Below are positions 3,971 through 50,807 of a DNA stretch of 64,000 nucleotides, in pieces. The notes beneath the pieces are model-generated. The model made no database searches. It was not told the DNA's origin and was given only the letters and a program-made list of their open reading frames with translations. This DNA comes from Halogeometricum limi (GTDB lineage Archaea; Halobacteriota; Halobacteria; Halobacteriales; Haloferacaceae). The first letter of the stretch is position 1. Every line of letters starts with the position of its first letter. A program made the position numbers and the translations under genes. Location: the NCBI RefSeq assembly GCF_900115785.1, contig NZ_FOYS01000001.1:610769-674768 (forward strand), read 5' to 3'.

Positions 3971-4120
3971 ACTACCCCACCCTACCGCTCGCTTGACGGC
4001 TCGCGCTTGAGGGTGGGGCTTCCTGTTTCAACGACGCGCTTTGCAGACACGGAGGTGTCCACAGGGAGCGCAGTCTCCACAGGCGTTGATTCGGAGCGTC
4101 CCGCTCCTAACCGCTTCCTG
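3971..4120 (-). ncRNA. Predicted omega/reRNA (sotRNA-like) at the 3' end of tnpB
   Basis: TnpB nucleases use a guide RNA made from the 3' end of their own gene plus the right end of the element. In Halobacterium, transcripts overlapping the 3' end of IS1341-type tnpB genes are known. Here the last codons fold into the CCCCACCCT/AGGGTGGGG hairpin at the right end. The guide would be flanking DNA read leftward from about 3970, that is, the 3' end of the propeller lipoprotein gene. The 5' limit of the RNA is a guess. RNA sequencing of this strand would settle it. Confidence 0.45.
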
Positions 4121-5205
4121 ATACCGCGAGAAAGAATGTTCCACGCCGCGTTCGCGTCTCTATCCGCCTCGAACCCACACGCTGGACAGGAGTGCTCACG
4201 GACCCACAGCGGTTTGTCCGTCGAAACGCCGCACGACGCGCACTCTTTGGTCGTTCCACGCGGATTCACGGTGACGAAGTGCGTTCCTTCGCGTTTGCAC
4301 TTGTATTCGAGCATCCGCAGGAACGTCCCCCACGCCGCGCCCGCCCGGTTCCGAGAGTTGCTCGGAAGTTCGACCAAGCCCTTCGAATCGAGGTCTTCGA
4401 CCGCTACGAGGCCGTACTCCCGAGCGTAGTAGTTCGAGAGCTTGTGTAGGAAGTCTCGCCACTTGTTCTTCAACTCGGCGTGGCGCTCGGCCACGACGCG
4501 GCGCTGTTTCTCCCAATTCGCAGAGCCGTGTTGTTTCCGCGAGAGGTTGCGCTGTGCGCGTTCCAAGCGTTCGCGCTCGTCGGACAGGTCGGACGATTCG
4601 ACGGCGGTGCCGTCGGTGTCGTGGGCGTACTTCAGGATACCTACGTCGATACCGACGCACTTCTCGGGATTCTCGGGTTTCTCCGGCGGGTCGTCCGGGG
4701 TTTCGACGCCGAGGATAGCGTACCACTTTCCGGTGGGTTCGCGTTTGACCGTGACGGTCTTGATTTCGGCGTCGTCGGGGAGGTCGCGGTGGAAGGTGAT
4801 GGGTATTTCTCCGAGTTTCGAGAGCCACAGTCGGGTCCGACCGCTCGTGTTTTTGAGCTTGAAGCCGGATTGACTGTAGATGAAACTGCGGTACTCGCCC
4901 GGTGCTTTCCACTTGAGGGTGCCGACGCGGTAGCCGTTTTCTTTGCGACCGCGAAGCGTCGAGAGGTTGTCGTACAACCGCTGAACGACTTTCTGAAGAA
5001 CCTTCGAGTGAACGTGTTTCAGGTCGTTCCACCACTTCTTGAGACTCGGCAGGCGTTTCTGCTCGCTGTATGCCGATGTGTCGTCGGCGCGGTTGAGTCG
5101 GTGGAGGAAGTGGTTGTAGACCTGTCTACAGGTATCGACAGTCCACGCTAACTGCTCTTCGAGAGCGTCGGACGGTCGAAGTCGATACCTGTAGTTGTAG
5201 TTCAT
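3982..5205 (-). CDS. tnpB: TnpB RNA-guided endonuclease
   Basis: The full-length 407-residue TnpB appears intact. It has an N-terminal helix-turn-helix/wedge region, then a split RuvC nuclease: D187 in GIDVGILKYA, E270 in VAVEDLD, and the third acidic residue in the DRDANAAWNI motif (D348/D350). A four-cysteine zinc ribbon (C322, C325, C340, C343) lies between. TnpB uses a guide RNA from the element's right end to cut DNA next to a short target motif, which helps the element survive after excision. The start ATG is joined directly to the TAG of the small upstream ORF. The last codons lie inside the right-end hairpin, as is normal for this group. Confidence 0.95.
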   Translation of the reverse strand: MNYNYRYRLRPSDALEEQLAWTVDTCRQVYNHFLHRLNRADDTSAYSEQKRLPSLKKWWNDLKHVHSKVLQKVVQRLYDNLSTLRGRKENGYRVGTLKWKAPGEYRSFIYSQSGFKLKNTSGRTRLWLSKLGEIPITFHRDLPDDAEIKTVTVKREPTGKWYAILGVETPDDPPEKPENPEKCVGIDVGILKYAHDTDGTAVESSDLSDERERLERAQRNLSRKQHGSANWEKQRRVVAERHAELKNKWRDFLHKLSNYYAREYGLVAVEDLDSKGLVELPSNSRNRAGAAWGTFLRMLEYKCKREGTHFVTVNPRGTTKECASCGVSTDKPLWVREHSCPACGFEADRDANAAWNILSRGIRKRLGAGRSESTPVETALPVDTSVSAKRVVETGSPTLKREPSSER

Positions 5206-5526: not shown

Positions 5527-7881
5527 TTAGTCGTCGTCGTTTTCGTCGTCTTCGTCTTCGGTCTCTTCGTTCTCGGTGTCCTCGGACTCCTCGTCGTCAT
5601 CTTCGGACTCTTGTTCGTCGTCTTCGACCTCTTCGTCAGATTCGCCGCCCGCCTCCGCGCTCGCTGCATTCGCTTGCGACGACTGCTCGGTTTGGGTCGC
5701 AGTCGGCTCGTCGGTCTGGGTCGCGGTCGGTTCCTCAGTTTGGGTCGCGGTCGGTTCCTCAGTTTGAGTCGCGGTCGGTTCCTCGGTTTGCGTCGCGGTC
5801 GGTTCCTCAGTTTGAGTCGCAGTCGGTTCGTCGGTTCGAGTCGCGGTCGGTTCGTCGGTTCGAGTCGCAGTCGGTTCGTCGGTTCGAGTCGCAGTCGGTT
5901 CGTCGGTCTGGGTCGCGGTCGGTTCCTCAGTTTGCGTCGCGGTCGACTGTTCAGTCTGGGTCGCCGTCTGCTCTTCAGTCTGCGTCTCTCGCTGTGCTGA
6001 GGGCGTACTCGTCGCGGTCGACTGCTCGGTCCGGGTTGCAGTCGGATATTCCGTCTGAGTCGCCGTCTGTTCCTCGGTCTGAGTCGTGGTCGACCGTTCG
6101 GTCTGCGTCGGTTCCTCCGTCTCGGTGTCGCTTCCGAGTGGGTCCTCCCAGAAGAACTCCCAGAGTCCGGAGTAACCCTGGTACGCGTTCTTCTCGGCGT
6201 CTTTGTAGGCTTCTTTTGTAGAGAACGACCGGTCGGACACCTGCGCGTAGCCCTCCTGAATCAACCGTTCGTTCAGGGTGTCGGTTCCGGACTCGACGTA
6301 GACGAGGAGATTCCCTTCCGAGTCACGTCGGTCGGCTTTCGAGTCGACGCGGATGGTGACTTCCTCGCCACCGACCTGCCGTTCCGTGAACGACTGTGCC
6401 TTGTTCTCCCACTCGTTCAGCCAACTCTCGCCACCGTCTTCGGAGGCCATGCCGAGGAAGTCGCCACTGCTGTAGTCGCCGTCGGGCGTGTCCGCCCCGA
6501 GGACGTTGACGATTTCGGTGTGTCCGTCGGCGAACTCTACTTTCAGGGTGTCGCCGGCGACGACGTCTACGACTTCGACGGTCCACTCTTCGCGAGTCTC
6601 GGTGTCCGTCTCGGTGCTCGTCTCGGTGCTCGTCTCGGTGTCGTCACCGAGCGGGTTCGGTTCGTAGAACTGCCAAAGACCGGTGTACCCCTGCTGGGCG
6701 TTCTTCTCGGCCCGTTCGTAGCTCGACCGCTTCGCGAACGAGTCGTCCGAGATCTGCGCGTGTCCCTGCTGGACCAGTTGGGCGTTCAGCGTGTCGTCAC
6801 CGGACTCCGCATACACGAGGAGTCGGCCCTGCGAGTCGCGGCGGTCGGCCTCGGAGTCGACGCGAATCGTGATTTCGTCGCCACCGACGTTCTGGCGGGT
6901 GAACTCCGTCGCGTTGCTCACCCACTCGTCCAACCAGGCTTCGCCGCCGTCTTCGGTCGGCATCCCCTCGAAGTCACCGTCGTCGTAGGTTCCGTCGGGG
7001 GCGTCGACGCCGACGAGACTGACCGTCTCGATACTCCCGTCGGAGAACTCGACTCTGAGCAGGTCCGCTTCGACGACTTCGACGACGTCGACGGTCCACT
7101 CGGACTGGTCCGCGCTCGGCCCGGACACGGACGCCGTCGGGGTGGTGTCCGTCGCCGTCTCTTCGTCGTTCGTACTGCTGCCCGCCTCGTTCTGAGCCGC
7201 ACCGTTCGTCTCGTCAGTCGTAGTGGTGTCGGTGGTGGTCGTATCGGTCGTAGTGGTGTCGGTGGTGGTCGTGTCGGTCGTAGTGGTGTCGGTCGTAGTG
7301 GTGTCGGTCGTAGTGGTGTCGGTGGTGGTCGTATCGGTCGTAGTGGCGTCGGTGGTGGTCGTGTCGGTCGTAGTGGTGTCGGTCGTAGTGGCGTCAGTCG
7401 TCTCGTCCGTGGAATCGTCCGACGTCGTGTCCGCGGCCGACTCGGTGTCCGTCGACGAGTCGCCGTCGGTCGCTGCCGCGTCGGCGTCCGATTCGGAGTC
7501 GGACGCGTCTGCGCCGCCGCCACCGTTCGACGAAGACGAGGACGAAGCAGAGGACGACTGACTGGACTGCGAACTCGACTTCGAGTTCGACGCCGCGTCC
7601 GCGCCATCGCTCGTGGCCGCGTCCGCGGGTTCGCTGTCCGCAGTCGCGGTCGAACTCTCGCCGTCGGTCTGCGACGGGGCCGTCTCGACGTCCTCGTCGC
7701 CCGCGACGGTCGACTGCTCCGCCGTCGCCGCACCGGACTCGTTCTGCGCCTGTTCGGTCACCGTCACGCCCATCGATTCTGCTGTCGTTACGTCACTGCT
7801 GTTGGAGGATTGTGGACCCGCAGACGTACACCCCGCCGTGACGAGGAGGAGTGCGACCACGAGTGTTGCCAGCCGGGACAT
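5527..7881 (-). CDS. Lipoprotein with two thermonuclease-like (SNase-fold) domains and Thr-rich stalks
   Basis: The 784-residue protein has a bacterial-type signal with lipobox VTAGC (C18). A long Ser/Thr/Asp-rich stalk follows, including about a dozen TTTTD repeats (residues 163-223). Two homologous SNase-like domains come next (about 261-405 and 432-575), each with WTV[DE]VV, GVDAPDG or GADTPDG, RVDS.ADRRDS and GY[TS]GLW. Then come about a dozen 8-residue repeats of type EPTATQTD and an acidic C-terminal tail. The first active-site arginine of staphylococcal nuclease appears replaced (VSLVGVD, VNVLGAD) and the TPE glutamate region is changed. An equivalent of the second arginine is kept only in domain 1 (R353, GRLLVY), with N in domain 2. 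The domains may therefore bind rather than cut nucleic acid. It is probably surface-exposed. Confidence 0.82.
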   Translation of the reverse strand: MSRLATLVVALLLVTAGCTSAGPQSSNSSDVTTAESMGVTVTEQAQNESGAATAEQSTVAGDEDVETAPSQTDGESSTATADSEPADAATSDGADAASNSKSSSQSSQSSSASSSSSSNGGGGADASDSESDADAAATDGDSSTDTESAADTTSDDSTDETTDATTTDTTTTDTTTTDATTTDTTTTDTTTTDTTTTDTTTTDTTTTDTTTTDTTTTDTTTTDETNGAAQNEAGSSTNDEETATDTTPTASVSGPSADQSEWTVDVVEVVEADLLRVEFSDGSIETVSLVGVDAPDGTYDDGDFEGMPTEDGGEAWLDEWVSNATEFTRQNVGGDEITIRVDSEADRRDSQGRLLVYAESGDDTLNAQLVQQGHAQISDDSFAKRSSYERAEKNAQQGYTGLWQFYEPNPLGDDTETSTETSTETDTETREEWTVEVVDVVAGDTLKVEFADGHTEIVNVLGADTPDGDYSSGDFLGMASEDGGESWLNEWENKAQSFTERQVGGEEVTIRVDSKADRRDSEGNLLVYVESGTDTLNERLIQEGYAQVSDRSFSTKEAYKDAEKNAYQGYSGLWEFFWEDPLGSDTETEEPTQTERSTTTQTEEQTATQTEYPTATRTEQSTATSTPSAQRETQTEEQTATQTEQSTATQTEEPTATQTDEPTATRTDEPTATRTDEPTATRTDEPTATQTEEPTATQTEEPTATQTEEPTATQTEEPTATQTDEPTATQTEQSSQANAASAEAGGESDEEVEDDEQESEDDDEESEDTENEETEDEDDENDDD
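5683..5955 (-). repeat. 24-base coding tandem repeat (8-residue units, EPTATQTD type)
   Basis: About a dozen near-identical 24-base units encode the C-terminal Thr/Glu-rich stalk of the lipoprotein at 5527-7881. Units differ by TEEP/TDEP and TQ/TR swaps, which suggests recent expansion by slippage or recombination. Copy number may vary between strains. Confidence 0.85.
7213..7405 (-). repeat. 15-base coding tandem repeat (TTTTD units)
   Basis: About 12-13 units of 15 bases encode a Thr/Asp stalk between the lipid anchor and the first SNase-like domain. Some units alternate GTGGTC/GTAGTG spelling, and two read ATTTD instead of TTTTD. Such Thr-rich stretches are common O-glycosylation sites in haloarchaeal surface proteins; glycosylation here is inference. 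Confidence 0.85.
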
Positions 7882-40633: not shown

Positions 40634-41716
40634 TCAGCCTTCCATCCCGCTGAACGACAGGCCGCCCTCGATGTACCGTTGTGCGAACAGGTACACGAGC
40701 ATGAGCGGCGAGGCGAACACGAGCGCGAACGCCGAGAACCGCGCCCACGGGATGGAGTACTCGTCGACGAGCGAGTACAGACCCACGGGCAGGGTGTAGT
40801 TCTCCGTGCCGAGCAACGTCTGCGCGACGACGAACTCCGTCCACCCCGTGAGGAACGTGAAGATGAACACCGTCGCCAACCCGGCCGCGGACAACGGGAG
40901 GATGACTTCGGTGACGACGCGCCACGGCGGCGCGCCGTCGACGACGGCCGCCTCCTCGTAGGAGGTCGGAATCCCGTCCATGTACGTCTTCAGAAGCCAC
41001 GTGTTGAACGGCACCGCCGTCGCCGCGTAGTAGACGGCCAGCGCGAGTTTGCTGTTGTTCAGACCCACCTGCACGTAGACGGCGTACAGGCCGATGAGAA
41101 GCGCGATACCGAGGCCGCCGCCCACCTGCGTCAAGAGGACGTACGTGAAGAGCACTTTGCGCCGGAAGATGAACTCGCGGCGCGAGAGCGCGTACGACGC
41201 CGGGATGATGAGACACATCGCGATGATGACCGTCGGAATCGACACCGTGAGGCTGTTCCAGAAGAACGACTTGAACTCCGAGGGGTTGTCGACGCCGTAG
41301 GCCGAGGCGTCGAGGAAGACGAGTTCGGGCGTGTTGAACACCACCGCGAGGTTGGTGAACGGGACGTTCACCGTGATGGCGTACGCCGGGACGATGAGGT
41401 CACCGACCACCCACAGGAACGGCTTCAGCGACGGGTCCTGCGGGAGGAGGTGGAGTCCGCCCGACGAGTAGATAGAACCGCCCGTCCCCGACAGCGCGGA
41501 CATCAGTATCCAGTACACCGGGAACAACAGAAGCGTCACGACGACGAGCGCGCCGAGCGTCGCGCCGACGGACTTCAGCGGTTCGGTCGGTGACGTCTCC
41601 CCGCGTGCGACGCTCCGCGCGGTGTACACCGCGTCGCGGCCGACTTCGACCGGGGTGTACGCGACGGTGCGCGCGTCCTCCGCGAGTTTGTCGACAACGC
41701 CGCGAACGAGGCTCAC
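40634..41716 (-). CDS. Maltodextrin-type ABC transporter permease (MalG-like)
   Basis: The 360-residue inner-membrane permease starts at a GTG (41716) that shares GTGA with the stop of the MalF-like gene, so translation is coupled. The first hydrophobic helix is preceded by a cytoplasmic head of about 55 residues. The EAA loop EEAAVVDGAPPWRVVTEVILP contacts the ATPase. A long outside segment lies between helix 1 and 2 (about 85-165). The C-terminus RYIEGGLSFSGMEG is typical of MalG proteins. It forms the channel with the gene at 41713-42678. Confidence 0.92.
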   Translation of the reverse strand: MSLVRGVVDKLAEDARTVAYTPVEVGRDAVYTARSVARGETSPTEPLKSVGATLGALVVVTLLLFPVYWILMSALSGTGGSIYSSGGLHLLPQDPSLKPFLWVVGDLIVPAYAITVNVPFTNLAVVFNTPELVFLDASAYGVDNPSEFKSFFWNSLTVSIPTVIIAMCLIIPASYALSRREFIFRRKVLFTYVLLTQVGGGLGIALLIGLYAVYVQVGLNNSKLALAVYYAATAVPFNTWLLKTYMDGIPTSYEEAAVVDGAPPWRVVTEVILPLSAAGLATVFIFTFLTGWTEFVVAQTLLGTENYTLPVGLYSLVDEYSIPWARFSAFALVFASPLMLVYLFAQRYIEGGLSFSGMEG

Positions 41717-42678
41717 GAGTCGCTCACCCCGTCCGCGAGCTTTCCTTTCTTCACGTTCAGCCACATGAACGCGCCGATGAACAGGACGGCGAGGAGGCTG
41801 ATGGCCGCACCCTCACCGTACTGCGAGAAGGTGAACGCCTCGCGGTAGCCGTAGACGACGAGCAGTTCGTTCGAGCGCGCCGGCCCGCCCTGATTGAAGA
41901 CGAACGGGATGAGGAACGCCTGGAACGACGCCGCGGCGGTCAGAATCGAGGCGAACAGCACCGGCCGCTTTATCGAGGGGAGCGTGACGTGCAGGAAGCG
42001 CGAGAAGTAGCCCGCGCCGTCGACCATCGCCGCCTCGTGGAGTTCCTTCGGTACGTCCTGAAGCGCGCTCACCGTGATGATAACCATGAACGGGTACGCC
42101 AGCCACATCTCGGTGACGTTGTACGAGAGAAACGACATCCAGCGCTGCGAGAGCCACGCGACCGAATCGAAGCCGAGTTCGCGCAGTATCTGGTTCGCGA
42201 GTCCGAACTCCGCGGAACTGAAGATGCCGCGCCAGACGGTCACGGTGAAGATGGCCGGAAGCCCCATCGGGAGGATGATGAGAGAGCGCATGAAGCGCTT
42301 CCCGCGGACTCGTTCGTTCGTGACGACGAGTGCGACGCCGATGCTGAACGTTATCTTCGCCGTGACGCTCGTCGCGACGAACAGCCACGTCACGCCGAAG
42401 GAGTTCCAGAACGCCGGGTCCGAGAGCGTCGAGACGTAGTTCTGTAAGCCGACGAACTCCGCTTGACCGAACGTCAGCACGTCGAGCGCCGTCTCTCCGG
42501 CGAACAGGTTCGCGGGCCTCGCGTTGGTGAACGAGATGCCGACGAGGTACAGCACCGGGAACAGCATGAACGCGGCGAAGACGAACAGTCCCGGTAGGAC
42601 GAGCAGCAGCGATGCGTCGTCCTTGTCGAGGAACGGCACCTCTCCCACCTTGGTTGCGACGCGCGATGCGGTGCTCAT
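41713..42678 (-). CDS. Maltodextrin-type ABC transporter permease (MalF-like)
   Basis: The 321-residue permease has six membrane helices. It starts with a short cytoplasmic head and helix DASLLLVLPGLFVFAAFML. The EAA motif is HEAAMVDGAGYFSRFLHVTLP. It pairs with the MalG-like protein and the ATPase at 44233-45357. It overlaps the downstream permease gene by 4 bases and follows the binding protein gene after 7 bases, so the three form a tight malEFG-like operon. Confidence 0.93.
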   Translation of the reverse strand: MSTASRVATKVGEVPFLDKDDASLLLVLPGLFVFAAFMLFPVLYLVGISFTNARPANLFAGETALDVLTFGQAEFVGLQNYVSTLSDPAFWNSFGVTWLFVATSVTAKITFSIGVALVVTNERVRGKRFMRSLIILPMGLPAIFTVTVWRGIFSSAEFGLANQILRELGFDSVAWLSQRWMSFLSYNVTEMWLAYPFMVIITVSALQDVPKELHEAAMVDGAGYFSRFLHVTLPSIKRPVLFASILTAAASFQAFLIPFVFNQGGPARSNELLVVYGYREAFTFSQYGEGAAISLLAVLFIGAFMWLNVKKGKLADGVSDS

Positions 42679-42685
42679 GGCGCGG

Positions 42686-43984
42686 TCACTCCCAGTTGCT
42701 ACGGATGGTCTTCGCCGCTTCGTCGAGCGCGGGCTTGACGTCCATGTCGCCGTTGAACAGTTTGGTCAGCGCGTCGCCGTACGGCGTCCAGACGGCGTTC
42801 ATCTTCGGATGCGTCGGCATCGGGACGCCCTGTTGGACGGCCTCGGAGAAGCCCTGGACGTTCTCGGGCAGGTCGTCGCTCGTGGCGATGCTGTCTAAGA
42901 CGGGAATCGCGCCCTGCTCTTTCGCGTTGCGGAGGGCGATGTCTTCGTTCGTCGCGTACCACTCGATGAAGTCCATCGCCGCCTGCGTGCCGGGGCCGTC
43001 TTCGCTCATGGCCTTCGAGAAGTACCACATCGTGATGCCCGTGAACGGGTTGGGTTCGCCGCCCTCGGGCGTGGGGAGTTTGGCGACGCCGTAGTCGACG
43101 CCTTTCTCGTTCAGCGTGCTCAGATACCACGGGCCGTTGATGGCGAACGGCGCGTTACCCTCCGCGAACGCGGCCGCCTGCGGGCCGTACGTCGGGTCGT
43201 TCGGCATGTACGGGGCGAAGTTATCGAGCGCGAACTTCACGCCCTTCGCCGTCGCGTCCGTGTTGACGCCGAGTTGGGGGTCCTCTTCGGGGTCGAAGAT
43301 GTAGCCGCCGAACGCCTGTGCCCACGCACTCGTGAAGTAGGGGTCGAACGGGTAGCCGAGACCGTACGTTCCGTTCTGCGGGTCGTGGTACTCCTCCATG
43401 ACGGTCTTCATCTCCGACACCGTCGAGGGTGCGGAGTCGACCATCTCCGTGTTGTAGACGAGCGCCACCGTCTCCGCGGAGTGCGGGAGGCCCACCGTCG
43501 CGCCGTCGAACTGAACGGCGCCCTGTGCGGCGTCGGTGAACTGGTCCATCTCGACGGAGATGGAGTCGCTCTTGTCGACGATGAAGCCGCGCTGGTAGTA
43601 GTCGCCGACGAAGTCGTGCGCCCACTCGAACGTCTTCGGACCCTGGTTCGCCGGGATGGCGGAGGTGGTCTTCTTCCGGAGGTCGGAGATGTCCGCGCCC
43701 TCGATGGTGTGCTTGGACGCCTCGTTGTACATGCCGAGAGCCTCCTTGCGGAGCGGAATCTCCGTGTCGGGGAGCGAGTACCACGCCTTCGCCGTACCGG
43801 CCGGGCCGGACGACTCCGTCGTCGAGTCGGCGTCACCGCTCGCGGTGGAGTCGCCGGACCCGTCGCCCGACTGCGACGCCTCCGTCCCTTCGCCCTGTTC
43901 TTGTACGCCGGCACAGCCAGCGAGCGCGCCGACGACGCCCGCGGTTCCGAGGTGCTTGAGCACCGTTCTGCGGTCCATTGTCAT
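42686..43984 (-). CDS. Sugar-binding lipoprotein of the maltodextrin ABC transporter (MalE-like)
   Basis: The 432-residue protein has Tat signal MDRRTVLKHLG and lipobox LAGC, so it is anchored outside by lipid. A Ser/Asp/Thr-rich linker follows, and then a family 1 solute-binding fold (GLPHSAETVALVYNTEMVD, FAEGNAPFAINGPWYL, AMDFIEWYAT). The operon mates, two amylolytic enzymes and a TrmB regulator point to maltodextrin as the ligand; this is inferred from context. The candidate operator at 43998-44014 lies between its TATA-like TTTAAG (44017-44022, minus strand) and the start. Confidence 0.92.
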   Translation of the reverse strand: MTMDRRTVLKHLGTAGVVGALAGCAGVQEQGEGTEASQSGDGSGDSTASGDADSTTESSGPAGTAKAWYSLPDTEIPLRKEALGMYNEASKHTIEGADISDLRKKTTSAIPANQGPKTFEWAHDFVGDYYQRGFIVDKSDSISVEMDQFTDAAQGAVQFDGATVGLPHSAETVALVYNTEMVDSAPSTVSEMKTVMEEYHDPQNGTYGLGYPFDPYFTSAWAQAFGGYIFDPEEDPQLGVNTDATAKGVKFALDNFAPYMPNDPTYGPQAAAFAEGNAPFAINGPWYLSTLNEKGVDYGVAKLPTPEGGEPNPFTGITMWYFSKAMSEDGPGTQAAMDFIEWYATNEDIALRNAKEQGAIPVLDSIATSDDLPENVQGFSEAVQQGVPMPTHPKMNAVWTPYGDALTKLFNGDMDVKPALDEAAKTIRSNWE

Positions 43985-43997
43985 GGGTGAATATGGG

Positions 43998-44014
43998 ATG
44001 AATTATTCGTTCAC
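43998..44014. promoter_or_regulatory. Candidate locus operator, copy 1 (malE-like promoter)
   Basis: The minus strand reads GTGAACGAATAATTCAT, a GTGAA-N7-TTCA(C/T) dyad. It matches 14 of 17 bases of the site at 47471-47487. It is placed downstream of the malE-like TATA box, a position that would block transcription when bound. I propose the TrmB-type protein (49755-50807) as the binder. Confidence 0.6.
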
Positions 44015-44036
44015 AACTTAAATCATTCGGATAGGA

Positions 44037-44173
44037 CACGATTTTTCGTACGATAGTCCCCGTTCGGCGTGGATACGATTCCTCTCCACTGCGGGTCGAA
44101 ACCGCCGAATTCGGCCGTTTACTTCACTCACGTCGGTCTCTCCACAGTCGGTCAAAAGTAATACGAAATCGTA
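44037..44173. promoter_or_regulatory. Second dyad pair TACGA-N(2/4)-TCGT(A/G) in the malE-malK spacer
   Basis: TACGA-AA-TCGTA is at 44162-44173. A related minus-strand TACGA-AAAA-TCGTG is at 44037-44050. Both sit in the 248-base divergent spacer and differ from the 17-base operator, so a second regulator may act here. Confidence 0.4.
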
Positions 44174-44202
44174 CCTCACAAATTCCTCTCGGAGGGCAAG
44201 AA

Positions 44203-44210
44203 CTATATCT
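44203..44210 (+). promoter_or_regulatory. TATA element of the MalK-type ATPase gene (leaderless)
   Basis: CTATATCT is centred about 27 bases before the ATG at 44233. Confidence 0.6.
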
Positions 44211-44232
44211 CGCCGTCACAAGCATCGGTCAA

Positions 44233-45357
44233 ATGGCAACCGTAACGCTCGATAATCTACGAAAAGAGTTCGACAACGGTCGCATCGTCGCGGTGGACGA
44301 CGTCTCCTTCGAGGTGGAGGACGGGGAGTTCGTCACCGTCGTCGGACCGTCAGGCTGTGGGAAGTCGACGACGCTGCGGATGATAGCGGGACTCGAAAGC
44401 CCGACGTCGGGGTCGATTCGCATCGGCGAGGCGGACGTGACGGACGTCCACGCGCGGCACCGCGACGTTGCGATGGTGTTTCAGAACTACGCGCTGTACC
44501 CGCACAAGACCGTCCGGCAGAACATGGCGTTCGGTCTGCGGATGAGCACGGACTTCTCGAAGGACGAGCGCAACCGCCGCGTCGAGGAGACGGCGGAGAT
44601 GATGGGCATCGAAGACCTGTTGGACGACAAGCCGAACGAACTCTCCGGCGGGCAGAAACAGCGCGTCGCCCTCGGGCGCGCTATCGTCCGCGAACCCGAC
44701 CTGTTCCTGTTCGACGAACCGCTGTCGAACCTCGACGCGAAACTCCGGACGACGATGCGCACGGAGATTCAACGCCTCCAGAACGAACTCGGAATCACCT
44801 CCATCTACGTCACGCACGACCAAGAGGAGGCGATGACGATGGGCGACCGACTCGCCATCCTGAAAGACGGCATCCTCCAGCAGGTGGGGAAACCGAAGGA
44901 CGTCTACGAGAACCCGAAGAACGCGTTCGTCGGCGGGTTCGTCGGGTCGCCGTCGATGAACTTCGTCGAGGTCGAAGCCACAGGCGACGGCGGGACGGTG
45001 ACGCTCTCGAAGGACGGCGGCTTCGACTACACGCTCACGGGCGACGTCGCGCGCCGCGTCTCCGAGAGCGGACTGCAGACGCTCCGTCTCGGCGTCCGAC
45101 CCGAGGACGTGACCGTCGCCGATACCGGGGCGGGTATCCCGACGACGGTGGACGTCGTCGAACCCGTCGGCTCGGACAACTACCTCCACCTCGACGTGGA
45201 CGTGGACTTCATCGCCCGTGTCGACTCCGACGTCGAACCCGAGGTGGACGACACCATCGAGATAACGTTCGACCAGTCGGACGTCCACCTGTTCGACGCG
45301 ACGACGGGCGAGGCGTTGCTGTACGAGTCACAGGAGACGGAACTCGCCGCGCAGTAG
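44233..45357 (+). CDS. Sugar ABC transporter ATP-binding protein (MalK/MsmX/UgpC type)
   Basis: The 374-residue cytosolic ATPase has Walker A GPSGCGKST, Q-loop QNYALYPHKTV, signature LSGGQKQRVALGRA and Walker B LFLFDEPLSNLDAKLR. The H-loop is followed by a C-terminal TOBE/OB regulatory domain (about 240-365, GVRPEDVTVAD). Such ATPases energise sugar uptake through MalF/MalG-like pairs. It is divergent from the malE-like operon and convergent with the glucoamylase gene. It could serve several sugar permeases, as MsmX does in bacteria. Confidence 0.94.
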   Translation: MATVTLDNLRKEFDNGRIVAVDDVSFEVEDGEFVTVVGPSGCGKSTTLRMIAGLESPTSGSIRIGEADVTDVHARHRDVAMVFQNYALYPHKTVRQNMAFGLRMSTDFSKDERNRRVEETAEMMGIEDLLDDKPNELSGGQKQRVALGRAIVREPDLFLFDEPLSNLDAKLRTTMRTEIQRLQNELGITSIYVTHDQEEAMTMGDRLAILKDGILQQVGKPKDVYENPKNAFVGGFVGSPSMNFVEVEATGDGGTVTLSKDGGFDYTLTGDVARRVSESGLQTLRLGVRPEDVTVADTGAGIPTTVDVVEPVGSDNYLHLDVDVDFIARVDSDVEPEVDDTIEITFDQSDVHLFDATTGEALLYESQETELAAQ

Positions 45358-45400
45358 GCGTCGTCCGACTCCGTTCGAGAAGTTCGTCGAGACGGCGTCG

Positions 45401-47434
45401 TCAGTCGTCCGCGACGACCGAGCGTTCCTCGCCTTCGAGCAGTTCGTACTCGTCCATGAGCGCCACCGTCGCCAGTCGGAGCGCGTGCGGCCATCCGAGC
45501 GGCGTCGCGCTGTCGGGCGTGCCGTCGTCGAACACCTGTTCCGGTAAGTAGCCGCTGTCCATACAGAGCGGACCGTCCGGGAGGACGAGAGCGAGAAGGT
45601 CACGCGCCGTCGCCGCGAACGTCTCGCTTCGGTCGTCGCCTCGGTCGGCGAGAAGCGCGCTCAGACTCGCGGCGGCGTGCGCTCCCCACCCGGTCGAGAC
45701 GGTCCAAATCTTCTCGTGGTCCTGTTCGCGCGTCCGCCAGCCGTCGCCCTCGTAGCGAACCAGGCCCTCCACGTCGCTCTCCGAGGGGTCGTAGTACAGT
45801 TCGTCGACGACGCGTTCGACGTGCGAGACGAGCCTGTCCGCGCGTTCGTCGTCCACCTCGCCCACGCGGGCGTACGTCCGATGGGCGTCCGCGAGAGCGA
45901 GCGTCGCGGAGTCGGCGCGTTCGTCCAGTCCGTCCGCCTCGTGGTCGTCGGTGAACTCGCGGAGCGCGTAGATGCCGCGCGAGGGGACCCACAAGTCGTC
46001 GATAGCGTCGTACACCTCGTCGGCGCGCGCTTTCGCCTCCGAGGCGAGGGCGGTGTCCGTCGCCGCCAGCGCCGAGTACGCCTCCAAGAACGTCGCCGTG
46101 GTGTGCGCGAAGCGACCCGACATGTCCTCCCACGCGTTCTGACAGGCGATTGGTCGGCCGTCGTCGGCCAGCGTCTCGTTCAGGCCGGTCAGGGCGCGCT
46201 CGACCGTCTCCGAGACGTCTCCGTCGGACTCCTCGAGATACGTCGCGAGGAAGGCGACGACGCTGCCCGTCTGGTCGGCCTGGTAGTCCACGTCCGACCC
46301 GGCCTCGATGCGGCCGTTCGCCCATCCGGGGGCGAGTTCGCCGCTGAACGGCCAGACGCGGTGCGGCCACGACCCGTCGTCCAGTTGCGTCTCGCGGTAC
46401 GCGCGGGCGCTCCGGTCGTGCCACTCCGAGAGGTCCAGTCCGAACTGCCGGTCGCTCTCCAAGAGGAAACGAGATATCTCGGCGTCGTCGCGGAACCAGG
46501 TGTAGCCGTACCCGCCGGAGTAGGCGTAGTAGGGGTCGAAGTCCGGCCCGGCGATGCGGAGGCCGAGGCGACCGGAGAGAAGCGAGAGAACCCGGAGGTC
46601 CGTCGAAACGGCGTCCGCGTGCGGGAGGTCAGCGGACGCCGTCTCCTCGGCGGCGACGCGCGCCAGTTCGTCGGCGTCGTAGTCGGCGGCGGCGGTGCGA
46701 ACCGCGTCGAGAGCCTCCGCGCGGGTGTGTTCCGAACGGGACGTGAGAAGCGTCGTGACCGTCGCCGTCCCCTCCTGCGTGGGGACGACACCGACCACGT
46801 CGCCGCTCAGGTGACCCTCCTCGTACCGGTCGTCGGACACCGGTCGGGGGTAGGCCGTCGGTTCGTCTTCCACGAGCGACTCGAAGTCGCCGAACGCTTC
46901 CCCGCGGAGTTCGACGAAACCCGTCTCGCTCGCGAGGTAGTCCGTCTCCTCGGCGTGATACACTTCCACGGCGTCGTCGTGGCGGAGTTGTCCGATGCGG
47001 GTGTCTCGCCCGTCCGGGGCGAACCCGACGCAGACGACGACGTCCAGTTCCTCGTCGGCGTCGCCCGTATCGAAGTGCGTCACGTGCGTCTCGCCGACCG
47101 TCGCGTCGTACTGCGTGACCGGGCCGTACGGCGTCTCGTGTTCGGTGACGACGAGCGCCGTCCCCGTCTCGTGCCGTTGGGTCGCGGCCTCGGCTTCGAA
47201 CCACGCCGTGGTCCCCGACTCACCGGCCGGTCGGACGCCGAGTCGCGAACGGACGATACCCGTCAGTCCGACGAGCGGATAGCTGAAGTCGCGGAGTTGT
47301 CCGTTCTCGGCGACGTGGACGAGTCGCCCGGCCTGCCCGGAGAACCGGCCGAACGTCGTCCGGCACTCGCCGGGAAAACGCGTCCGGTGGTCGCGGTTGT
47401 GTTTGTAGTCGTTCAGCGCGTCGCGAAGTTGCAT
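45401..47434 (-). CDS. Glycoside hydrolase family 15 (glucoamylase/glucodextranase-like)
   Basis: The 677-residue protein without a signal peptide is probably cytosolic. The N-terminal beta-sandwich spans about 1-265 (VENGQLRDFSYPLVGLTG region). The (alpha/alpha)6 barrel spans about 290-660 with GYGYTWFRDDA, DYQADQTGSV, the general-acid motif CQNAWEDMSGRFAHTTATFLEA and the general-base motif YLPEQVFDDG. It should release glucose from maltodextrins brought in by the adjacent ABC transporter. It starts at ATG 47434, with TATA element GTTATAAC centred 28 bases upstream. A longer ATG (47449) would lie between that box and the likely transcript start. Confidence 0.9.
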   Translation of the reverse strand: MQLRDALNDYKHNRDHRTRFPGECRTTFGRFSGQAGRLVHVAENGQLRDFSYPLVGLTGIVRSRLGVRPAGESGTTAWFEAEAATQRHETGTALVVTEHETPYGPVTQYDATVGETHVTHFDTGDADEELDVVVCVGFAPDGRDTRIGQLRHDDAVEVYHAEETDYLASETGFVELRGEAFGDFESLVEDEPTAYPRPVSDDRYEEGHLSGDVVGVVPTQEGTATVTTLLTSRSEHTRAEALDAVRTAAADYDADELARVAAEETASADLPHADAVSTDLRVLSLLSGRLGLRIAGPDFDPYYAYSGGYGYTWFRDDAEISRFLLESDRQFGLDLSEWHDRSARAYRETQLDDGSWPHRVWPFSGELAPGWANGRIEAGSDVDYQADQTGSVVAFLATYLEESDGDVSETVERALTGLNETLADDGRPIACQNAWEDMSGRFAHTTATFLEAYSALAATDTALASEAKARADEVYDAIDDLWVPSRGIYALREFTDDHEADGLDERADSATLALADAHRTYARVGEVDDERADRLVSHVERVVDELYYDPSESDVEGLVRYEGDGWRTREQDHEKIWTVSTGWGAHAAASLSALLADRGDDRSETFAATARDLLALVLPDGPLCMDSGYLPEQVFDDGTPDSATPLGWPHALRLATVALMDEYELLEGEERSVVADD

Positions 47435-47457
47435 TGTCGGCCAGTCCACCGCCGAAC

Positions 47458-47465
47458 GTTATAAC
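47458..47465 (-). promoter_or_regulatory. TATA element of the GH15 gene (leaderless)
   Basis: GTTATAAC is centred about 27-28 bases before the ATG at 47434. The dyad at 47471-47487 lies directly upstream, where an archaeal activator would bind. Confidence 0.6.
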
Positions 47466-47470
47466 TTTTG

Positions 47471-47487
47471 GTGAAATAGTCGTTCAC
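47471..47487. promoter_or_regulatory. Candidate locus operator, copy 2 (GH15/GH13 spacer)
   Basis: GTGAAATAGTCGTTCAC is a GTGAA-N7-TTCAC dyad with perfect 5-base arms. It lies between the divergent GH15 and GH13 genes, just upstream of the GH15 TATA box and 52 bases before the GH13 start. It is 14/17 identical to the site in the malE-like promoter. Confidence 0.6.
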
Positions 47488-47538: not shown

Positions 47539-49656
47539 ATGCACCATCCCGGACCCCCGCGCTTCACGGCGGTGGGCGACGCCGTCGAACTCGCGCCCCG
47601 AGACCCCTCGCCCGAAGAGACGTATCGGTGGCGAGTCACCGACAGACCGGACGGGAGCGAGGCGACGGTCGGAGACGCTCCCGTCGTCCACCTCGCGCCC
47701 GACGTCCCCGGTATCTACCGCGTCGAACTCGACGCCCCCGACGGAACGCACCGACAGACCGTCCGCGCGTTCCCCGACGTACGCACCGAGACCGAGTTTC
47801 GCGTCGGGGCGGACGAGGTGGACGTCGACTCCGACGACGTGGACTCCGTCTCCGTCATCGGTCCGTTCAACGACTTCACGATGGGACTCACGCGGCCGAC
47901 GTTCGACGGGGAGGCGTGGACCGTGCCCGTCTCGCTCCCGCCCGGCGACCACGACGCCATCTTCGCGTTCGACGACGGCTTCGACTCCTACGCGAACACG
48001 TCGGTCACGGTGGACGGCCCCGGCCGTCCGCGACTCCGACTCGACGGAACCCGCGAGGGCGAGGAGGTGGTCGTGACGGCGACGGCCGACGCGGCCCCCG
48101 ACGGCGACGACCCGGCCGTGGAGTTCTTCCTCGACGGCCGCGACGGACTCCGAGAGGAGGACGCCGCCGTCGACGGCGACGAACTTCGTCTCCCTCTGTC
48201 CGCCCTCTCGGAGTCCGAGACGACTCGTCTCCACGCCGTCCCCGTCGCCGAACGCCACGGTCTCTCGGACACGCTGGAACTCTCTCGCGACGGCGACGCC
48301 GTGACGTTCTCGCGCCCCGCCGACGCGCCGGCGTGGGTCGAAGACGCCACCGTCTATCAGATATTCGTCCGCGAGTTCGCGGGCGAGACGGTGGACACCA
48401 CGTTCGAGGAGATTTCGCGGCGTATCCCGTACCTCGAACACCTCGGCGTCGATACCCTCTGGCTCACCCCCGTCTGCGCGAGTCCGACGCACCACGGCTA
48501 CCACGTCACCGACCTGTTCGACACCGCGGACGACCTCGGGACGAGAGCGGAGTTCGAGTCGCTCGTCTCGGACCTCCACGACGCCGGCATCCGCGTCCTG
48601 TTCGACCTCGTCATCAATCACACCTCGCGGGACCACCCGGCGTACCAGCTCCACGAGGCGGGCGTTCCGGGCTACGAAGACCTGTACGAACGCGTCCCCG
48701 ACTCGCACGACACCTCTGATATCGACTGGTCCGCCGACGGCACGCCCGGCGTCTACTTCAACTGGTGGATGATTCCGAATCTGAACTACGACTCACTGCG
48801 CGTCCGCGAGTGGATGCTGGACGTGGTGGACGAGTGGGCACCCCTCGTCGACGGCTTTCGGTGTGACGTGGCGTGGGGCGTCCCCCACGGGTTCTGGAAG
48901 GAGGTCAGAGAACGCGTCAAGGCCGACGACTCCGAGTTCCTCTTGTTGGACGAGACGGTCCCCCGCCGACCGGAGTTCCGTGAGAACGAGTTCGACCTGC
49001 ACTACGACACGGACCTCTACTTCGCCCTCCGAGACGTCGGCACCGGCGAGAAGTCGGCGGCGGCCGTCTTCGACGCCCTCGACGCGTCCGAACGACTGGG
49101 CTACCCCGACGACGCCGTCCACATGCGCTACGTCGAGAACCACGACGAGGACCGCTACCTCGACGAGTGCGGCGCGGACGCCCTCCGGGCCGCCGTCGCG
49201 ACGACGTTCACGCTTCCCGGGACGCCCCTGATATACTACGGGCAGGAACGCGGGGTGACCGAGCAACGCGGGACGATGCGGTGGCACGACGGCGACGCCG
49301 ACCTGACCGACTTCCACCGCCGCCTCGTCTCGCTTCGGCGGGCCGAACCCGCTCTCCGTCGTGGGACGGTCGAACGGGTGGACTGTTCGGTCGGCGGTGA
49401 CGACGACGGCGACCGCGACCGCGATGATGACGACGGCGACGCCGCCGACGAGTCTCGGGTCGCGGCCTACGAGCGAACGACGGCGGAAGACCGCCTCCTC
49501 GTCGTCGTCAACTTCGGTTCGGAGGCGGCGACGGTGTCGTTCGACGACGGGGAGACGGCCGCTCTCGCCGACGCCACCGACCTGCTCTCGGGGACCGACG
49601 TCGGAACCGACGAGGGCGTCCGCGTCGCCGACGCCGTCGTCCTCCGTCTCGACTGA
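47539..49656 (+). CDS. Glycoside hydrolase family 13 (alpha-amylase/neopullulanase-like)
   Basis: The 705-residue protein starts at ATG 47539. There is no signal peptide, so it is likely cytosolic. Beta-sandwich domains come first (about 1-255), followed by the GH13 barrel: DTLWLTPVCASPTHHGYHVTD, the nucleophile D443 in GFRCDVAW, the acid/base E472 in LLDETVPR and D536 in YVENHDEDR. A C-terminal beta domain carries an acidic insert (about 620-640, Asp-rich). The multi-domain layout fits cyclomaltodextrinase/neopullulanase enzymes that cut maltodextrins. It forms a pathway with GH15 and the ABC transporter. Confidence 0.92.
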   Translation: MHHPGPPRFTAVGDAVELAPRDPSPEETYRWRVTDRPDGSEATVGDAPVVHLAPDVPGIYRVELDAPDGTHRQTVRAFPDVRTETEFRVGADEVDVDSDDVDSVSVIGPFNDFTMGLTRPTFDGEAWTVPVSLPPGDHDAIFAFDDGFDSYANTSVTVDGPGRPRLRLDGTREGEEVVVTATADAAPDGDDPAVEFFLDGRDGLREEDAAVDGDELRLPLSALSESETTRLHAVPVAERHGLSDTLELSRDGDAVTFSRPADAPAWVEDATVYQIFVREFAGETVDTTFEEISRRIPYLEHLGVDTLWLTPVCASPTHHGYHVTDLFDTADDLGTRAEFESLVSDLHDAGIRVLFDLVINHTSRDHPAYQLHEAGVPGYEDLYERVPDSHDTSDIDWSADGTPGVYFNWWMIPNLNYDSLRVREWMLDVVDEWAPLVDGFRCDVAWGVPHGFWKEVRERVKADDSEFLLLDETVPRRPEFRENEFDLHYDTDLYFALRDVGTGEKSAAAVFDALDASERLGYPDDAVHMRYVENHDEDRYLDECGADALRAAVATTFTLPGTPLIYYGQERGVTEQRGTMRWHDGDADLTDFHRRLVSLRRAEPALRRGTVERVDCSVGGDDDGDRDRDDDDGDAADESRVAAYERTTAEDRLLVVVNFGSEAATVSFDDGETAALADATDLLSGTDVGTDEGVRVADAVVLRLD

Positions 49657-49754: not shown

Positions 49755-50807
49755 ATGGACGACGCGGCTCTCATCGACTTGCTCCAGCGATTCGGGTTCT
49801 CCGACAAGGAGATAGACACGTATCTCACTATCCTCGAACTCGGCGAGGCGAAGGCGAGTACCATCGCCGACGAGGCGGACGTGTCGAAACGCTACGTCTA
49901 CAGCATCGCCGAGAAACTCGACGACCGCGGGTTCGTCGAGGTGAACGACCACGCCGTGCCGACGACCATCCGCGCCAAGCCGCCGTCGGACGTGGTGGAC
50001 TCGCTCTCTTCGGACTTAGAGCAGATGCGTCCCGCCTTGGACGCGCGATTCTCCCGGGCGGCCCCGCGCTCCGAACGTTTCGAGGTGGTGAAGTCCCGCG
50101 TCACCGTCGTCAAACGCCTCGCTGAACTCGTCGCCCGCGCGGAGACGGAAGTGACGCTCAGCGTCCCGTACACGCTCGTCGACGACGTGGCCGACGAACT
50201 CCGCGACGCGGTCGATAGGGGCGTTCTCGTCCTCCTCATCGTCACCGGCGTCGGCCCCACCGACCCGCTGGAACTGTCGGGACTCGCGTCGGTGGTGCGA
50301 GCGTGGGAGCAACCGATGCCGACGATGCTCACCGTCGACCAAGCGGCGGGGCTGGTCGCGCCGACGGAGATGGTGACGCGGTCGAACAGCGAGGCGCAGG
50401 CCATCGTCTTCGCGCAGGAACAACTGGGTCCGGTCCTCGTCGGGTCGTTCCTCGGCAACTACTGGCCGATGGCCACCGAGACGTACACCTGCGAACCGGA
50501 CGAACTCCCGACGGCGTACGGCGACTTCCGCCACGCCGCCCTGCAGGCGACGCTCCACGTCCGGATGGGCCACGAAGTGCGGGCGCGGGCCACCGGGCGG
50601 TCGGTTCACCTCGAAGACGGCCGCACGGAGTTGAACGGCCGAATCGTCGACGTCCGGCAGGGGCTGCTCGAACCGGCGACGAACTCCTTCCCCGTCGAGA
50701 ACACGCTCGTCGTCGAAACCGAGGACGGGACGTTCAGCGTCGGCGGTCAGGGGGCGTTCATCGAGGACTTCGAGGCCGAGTCGGTCGAACTCTCGCTCGT
50801 CGAGTGA
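49755..50807 (+). CDS. TrmB-family sugar-sensing transcription regulator
   Basis: The 350-residue protein begins with a TrmB winged helix (LLQRFGFSDKEIDTYLTILE, KASTIADEADVSKRYVYSIAEKL, GFVEV). A helical linker follows, then a phospholipase D-like sugar-sensing domain (about 110-245) and a C-terminal beta domain. TrmB proteins bind a sugar such as maltose and repress or activate sugar uptake genes depending on site position. Its place at the end of the maltodextrin locus and the two matching dyads (43998-44014, 47471-47487) make it the likely local regulator. Confidence 0.9.
   Translation: MDDAALIDLLQRFGFSDKEIDTYLTILELGEAKASTIADEADVSKRYVYSIAEKLDDRGFVEVNDHAVPTTIRAKPPSDVVDSLSSDLEQMRPALDARFSRAAPRSERFEVVKSRVTVVKRLAELVARAETEVTLSVPYTLVDDVADELRDAVDRGVLVLLIVTGVGPTDPLELSGLASVVRAWEQPMPTMLTVDQAAGLVAPTEMVTRSNSEAQAIVFAQEQLGPVLVGSFLGNYWPMATETYTCEPDELPTAYGDFRHAALQATLHVRMGHEVRARATGRSVHLEDGRTELNGRIVDVRQGLLEPATNSFPVENTLVVETEDGTFSVGGQGAFIEDFEAESVELSLVE

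Follow-up and report, generated by a model that had tools for sequence, protein, structure and literature searches.

A maltodextrin gene cluster with promoter dyads

We analyzed a stretch of 64,000 nucleotides (the window) from the haloarchaeon Halogeometricum limi (contig NZ_FOYS01000001.1, positions 610,769 to 674,768). It carries a maltodextrin cluster comprising, in order, malG, malF, and malE (minus strand), malK (plus), GH15 (minus), GH13 (plus), and a TrmB-type regulator gene (plus). Judging from sequence comparisons, dyads in the promoters of this cluster quite likely serve as operators for a dedicated TrmB-type regulator that responds to maltose/maltodextrin and is encoded at 49755-50807. 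Both the TrmB family and the occurrence of its palindromic operators at mal genes have been described before (PMC4158304). The genes of the cluster are as follows.

40634..41764, minus: malG-like permease (PF00528; nearest NCBIfam model MalG, score below cutoff)
41713..42678, minus: malF-like permease (PF00528; nearest NCBIfam model MalF, score below cutoff)
42686..43984, minus: malE-like substrate-binding protein (PF13416; nearest NCBIfam model MalE, score below cutoff)
44233..45357, plus: malK-like ATPase (TOBE_2/OB_MalK domains)
45401..47434, minus: GH15 glucoamylase-like enzyme (PF00723)
47539..49656, plus: GH13 enzyme (nearest haloarchaeal MalA model, score below that model's cutoff)
49755..50807, plus: TrmB-type regulator, candidate binder of the dyads (PF01978 and PF11495; neighborhood counterpart of Haloferax volcanii HVO_0568)

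For GH15, the ATG at 47434 is the best choice of start, because orthologues align there. Similar arrangements, with variations, were found in Haloferax, Halonotius, Haloarcula, Haladaptatus, and others; Halorubrum has GH15-GH13-trmB only. GH15 and the TrmB-type gene were the sole genuine genes present at all 23 loci compared, with GH13 at 22 of the 23.

The initial annotation described two 17-base dyads, at 43998-44014 (minus) and 47471-47487 (plus), and both are present, with agreement at 14 of 17 positions. A third, weaker copy, which that annotation missed, lies 5' of malK. The dyads and the promoter elements beside them (transcription factor B recognition element [BRE] and TATA box) are listed below.

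43998..44014, minus: candidate malE operator, dyad GTGAACGAATAATTCAT, beginning 30 bp 5' of the malE ATG, between the TATA-like box and the predicted transcription start
47471..47487, minus: candidate GH15 operator, dyad GTGAAATAGTCGTTCAC on the plus strand and GTGAACGACTATTTCAC in gene orientation, beginning 53 bp 5' of the ATG at 47434
44163..44179, minus: candidate malK operator, imperfect dyad, ACGAAATCGTACCTCAC on the plus strand and GTGAGGTACGATTTCGT in motif orientation, beginning 70 bp 5' of the malK ATG
44018..44030, minus: malE BRE/TATA-like elements CCGAATGATTTAA, kept 5' of the dyad across loci
47459..47470, minus: GH15 BRE/TATA-like elements CAAAAGTTATAA, from sequence and conservation
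44197..44208, plus: malK BRE/TATA-like elements CAAGAACTATAT, from sequence and conservation

The GH15 dyad directly abuts the BRE-like CAAAAG. Because the GH15 ATG lies only about 25 bp 3' of the BRE/TATA-like elements, the transcript is probably leaderless. An RNA element was rejected as an explanation of the dyads on these grounds, together with the position of the malE dyad 5' of the predicted transcription start. The pattern GTGAA-N7-TTCAY occurs at three places in the window, compared with 0.04 expected from shuffles. The third strict dyad (41355-41371) was discarded as an operator: it is internal to malG, its center is rich in G+C, and it is not found in the malG genes of 36 relatives, which marks it as a coding coincidence.

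Conservation of the dyads at orthologous promoters

The view of the dyads as conserved regulatory elements in the maltodextrin cluster was borne out in related genomes, where they are kept in orthologous loci at fixed positions. With a weight matrix, the malE dyad was found to begin 24 to 31 bp (mostly 29 to 31 bp) 5' of the ATG in 39 of 40 loci, and the GH15 dyad 51 to 54 bp 5' of the ATG in 53 of 54, the lone exception having a run of N. Since the matrix was trained on both sets of promoters, the count of strict dyads is the less biased figure: 29 of 40 malE promoters (0.085 expected from shuffles) and 33 of 54 GH15 promoters (0.035 expected). Among dereplicated loci, mean information in the GH15 dyad columns was 1.28 bits, versus 0.11 in the flanks. 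At malK, an inverted dyad at -69 to -71 was seen in most loci, with the full consensus in one relative (L104). The consensus refined on these relatives is RTGAA-NNANNWW-TWCAY (RTGAANNANNWWTWCAY as a search pattern). Its right half-site varies with the promoter, being TTCAT in 32 of 39 malE sites and TACAC in 41 of 53 GH15 sites.

The motif is short and the pattern was picked after looking, as would suit chance palindromes or leftovers of general promoter conservation. We give that explanation a negligible probability, given the fixed positions in divergent genera, the near-random flanks, strict counts far above those of shuffles, and the confinement of the motif to one cluster.

Looping between malE and malK at a fixed helical phase was also considered and rejected, as the spacings ranged from 49 to 220 bp, or about 2 to 2.8 kb with intervening genes, and showed no phasing (resultant 0.26, 15 spacings).

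Two observations concern GH13 genes. In Halobiforma nitratireducens (L165), the promoter of a stand-alone GH13 gene contains a strong match to the mal dyad (22.2 bits), which suggests that the site moves along with regulon membership. Where GH13 lies apart from GH15 (L077, L079, L080, L081, L082, L091, and L099), its promoter has another dyad, CAGAAG-N4-CTTCWG, just 5' of a TATA-like box, with a variant in L096; this dyad is a candidate second operator.

Specificity of the motif within genomes

The loose pattern RTGAA-N7-TTCAY was found at 14 places in the H. limi genome, compared with 6 in the control, and is therefore unconvincing by itself. The genome scan called for in the initial annotation gave a clear result with the refined motif: in the 3.6-Mb genome it matched at two places, exactly the malE and GH15 dyads, with no scattered matches and none in the control. 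Among the Halogeometricum congeners, which include H. pallidum, the one with the cluster (G003) had one match to the refined pattern, its malE site being off by one base; a sequence-profile search concurred and recovered both G003 sites. No match to the refined motif was found in three congeners without the cluster (G001, G002, and G004).

Across 148 family genomes, 43 of the 73 matches listed for those with a regulator orthologue fell within 15 kb of that orthologue; some family genomes without an orthologue had background matches above the control. The recurrent distant matches examined were dismissed: the one in Halorubrum, ATGAACGAGCATTACAT, marks where a long reading frame starts, and the Haloferax matches inspected fall within coding sequence or are not conserved. 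The word "regulon" in the initial annotation goes too far in extent, as the set is local to the cluster and comprises three dyad-bearing promoters.

The TrmB-type regulator and its relatives

The regulator has an N-terminal TrmB winged-helix domain (PF01978; 57.4 bits, cutoff 25.6) and a C-terminal sugar-binding domain (PF11495; 202.4 bits, cutoff 22.2). It keeps the sugar-site residues that correspond to G320 and E326 in the Thermococcus protein (VGG and IED, aligned to 3qph), and the palindromic operators typical of the family have their candidate counterparts in the conserved dyads at sugar-gene promoters. Across 82 orthologues, there is almost no variation in the recognition helix (VSKRYVYS) or the wing (VEVNDH..PTTIRA); those of the gluconeogenic TrmB differ (IPQPRVYDTVRSL).

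This regulator is not of the canonical haloarchaeal type. It shares about 30% identity with the Haloarcula HAH_1548-type protein and, at 145.7 bits, fails the canonical equivalog NF047392 (cutoff, 500 bits). In Haloarcula genomes, the HAH_1548/HAH_1557-type tandem pair (HAH_1548-type assignment relied on Pfam scores and on the tandem arrangement) sits apart from the mal-linked gene. A tree built with a quick method, and with several long branches, placed the mal-linked and HAH_1548-type regulators in separate clades.

The dyads might instead be bound by the canonical gluconeogenic TrmB (HAH_1548/VNG_1451C type), which H. limi also encodes. We consider this very improbable: this paralogue lies on another contig (contig 5) and passes NF047392 with 585.5 bits, as the window protein does not; a search of the malE, malK, and GH15 promoters for the canonical TACT-N7-8-GAGTA motif found none; and the published Haloarcula hispanica chromatin immunoprecipitation peaks include no mal cluster. 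A perfect TACT-N8-GAGTA does occur at 4415-4431 of the window, inside a transposase-like coding sequence (3982-5205; TnpB type by eye), probably by chance.

Comparison with described systems places the candidate operator among, and apart from, known TrmB sites. The TrmB of Pyrococcus furiosus and Thermococcus litoralis (PMC4158304), acting on a trehalose/maltose operon, likewise is encoded beside a mal transporter, has a palindromic operator in the malE promoter, and responds to maltose as inducer, a role that maltose would play here too. Its TACT-N3-AGTA site, however, overlaps the BRE/TATA box, whereas here RTGAA-N7-TWCAY lies 3' of the malE TATA box and upstream at GH15 and malK. Halobacterium and Haloarcula TrmB (VNG_1451C and HAH_1548) share the domain architecture and a palindromic site, and their dual action is set by site position; they differ in motif, in their global gluconeogenic regulon, and in their glucose signal. 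Thermococcales TrmBL1/Tgr, also of the TrmB family, recognizes a palindrome (the TGM site, TATCAC-N5-GTGATA), responds to maltotriose and maltose, and is both repressor and activator, but its half-sites differ in orientation and sequence, and its glycolytic regulon is genome-wide rather than confined to one cluster. As the motif is unlike the TrmB sites already known, a different DNA specificity, which the initial annotation had suggested, is plausible for this proposed local mal regulator. No report of the dyad operator or of HVO_0568 function was found in the literature searched, from which subscription journals were mostly absent.

The maltose response in Haloferax volcanii

By annotation and position, HVO_0562-0568 of H. 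volcanii is the same cluster, and from gene order we infer that it corresponds to malGFE, malK, GH15, GH13, and the regulator. HVO_0567 is an alpha-amylase gene between those for a glucan 1,4-alpha-glucosidase and the TrmB-type protein HVO_0568 (PMC5198076). RNA sequencing showed that maltose specifically upregulates HVO_0562-0566, with HVO_0562-64 rising more than fivefold, and HVO_0567 (GH13) is absent from the maltose-induced list (PMC10448506). The discussion of that paper states that no maltose promoter passed the cutoff, which is at odds with its own induction result. The malE and GH15 sites, together with the malK element, are present in close relatives of H. volcanii. The maltose-induced set coincides with the dyad-bearing set, with GH13 not listed, which supports a single control circuit. 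The induction also lends indirect support to DNA binding modulated by sugar, as is typical of the TrmB family.

A model for maltose control

We propose that the sugar-free regulator probably binds the RTGAA-N7-TWCAY sites as a dimer. Bound between the TATA box and the transcription start, the dimer would repress malEFG, and maltodextrin in the C-terminal sugar domain would relieve this repression. The same regulator would govern GH15 and malK through sites 5' of their TATA boxes, so that transporter and hydrolase would be coinduced. Protein-DNA binding, dimerization, ligand, and sign of action are what we infer from the comparisons above.

The action at the upstream sites may take either of two forms. 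At GH15, the regulator could repress by crowding the abutting BRE, or its sugar-bound form could activate. The initial annotation had assigned activation to the GH15 site by position logic; simple logic of this kind does not support it, because malGFE, malK, and GH15 all rise with maltose in H. volcanii (PMC10448506). With malEFG, malK, and GH15 induced together, a protein merely released by sugar cannot repress malE yet activate GH15 and malK. In a variant compatible with the favored explanation, the GH15 and malK sites would activate via the sugar-bound regulator and the malE site would repress via the sugar-free form. The maltose induction of all three genes in H. volcanii is in keeping with it, as are the consistently promoter-specific right half-sites and the use of upstream sites for activation by other TrmB-type regulators. 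Binding at the GH15 dyad, however, could equally block transcription factor B at the abutting BRE, and repressed TrmB targets in Haloarcula have BRE-overlapping motifs. We hold this variant to be a tenable minority view. Its explicit form is rather doubtful: promoter-specific operator variants combined with ligand-dependent binding, so that the sugar-free protein represses malEFG from the downstream site, the sugar-bound protein activates malK and GH15 from the upstream sites, and the response to maltose has the same sign for all of these genes. We lean slightly toward repression at the GH15 site and make no commitment at malK.

Several observations weigh against a dedicated TrmB-type regulator acting at all three promoters. 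The malK site scores 4.7 bits with the matrix, compared with about 24 for the malE and GH15 sites. Autoregulation was rejected, as only 3 of 57 trmB promoters reached a score of at least 10 and most loci have no dyad there. Simple release by sugar does not account for the upstream sites, should those be activator sites. The three congeners without the motif (L045-L047) retain the regulator gene (85% identical) with neither a mal cluster beside it nor a GH15 orthologue; there, the regulator may have another role.

This retention of the gene without any site also favors a different explanation, in which some other transcription factor, with its gene elsewhere in the genome, uses the dyads as operators, and many regulators do work in trans from distant genes. 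Such a factor is improbable in our estimation. A global factor is unlikely, since the motif occurs nowhere else in the genome, and no regulator gene other than the TrmB-type one is kept at every one of the 23 loci compared, among them Halorubrum and Halonotius loci with just GH15, GH13, and trmB. The product of the TrmB-type gene is hence the best candidate binder, as first proposed, and the dedicated TrmB-type regulator remains our favored explanation.

Elsewhere in the window, a long protein encoded at 5527-7881 (minus) contains a pair of similar internal repeats, along with long low-complexity stretches rich in threonine (TDTTTT and TEEPTATQ).

The dyads and the adjacent gene give maltose control across haloarchaea a concrete operator and regulator that can be tested, and they offer a candidate explanation for the published maltose response in H. 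volcanii. A possible use in archaeal genetics is as a compact promoter inducible by maltose. For the TrmB family, they add a candidate further DNA specificity, together with a recognition helix that would be expected to explain it.
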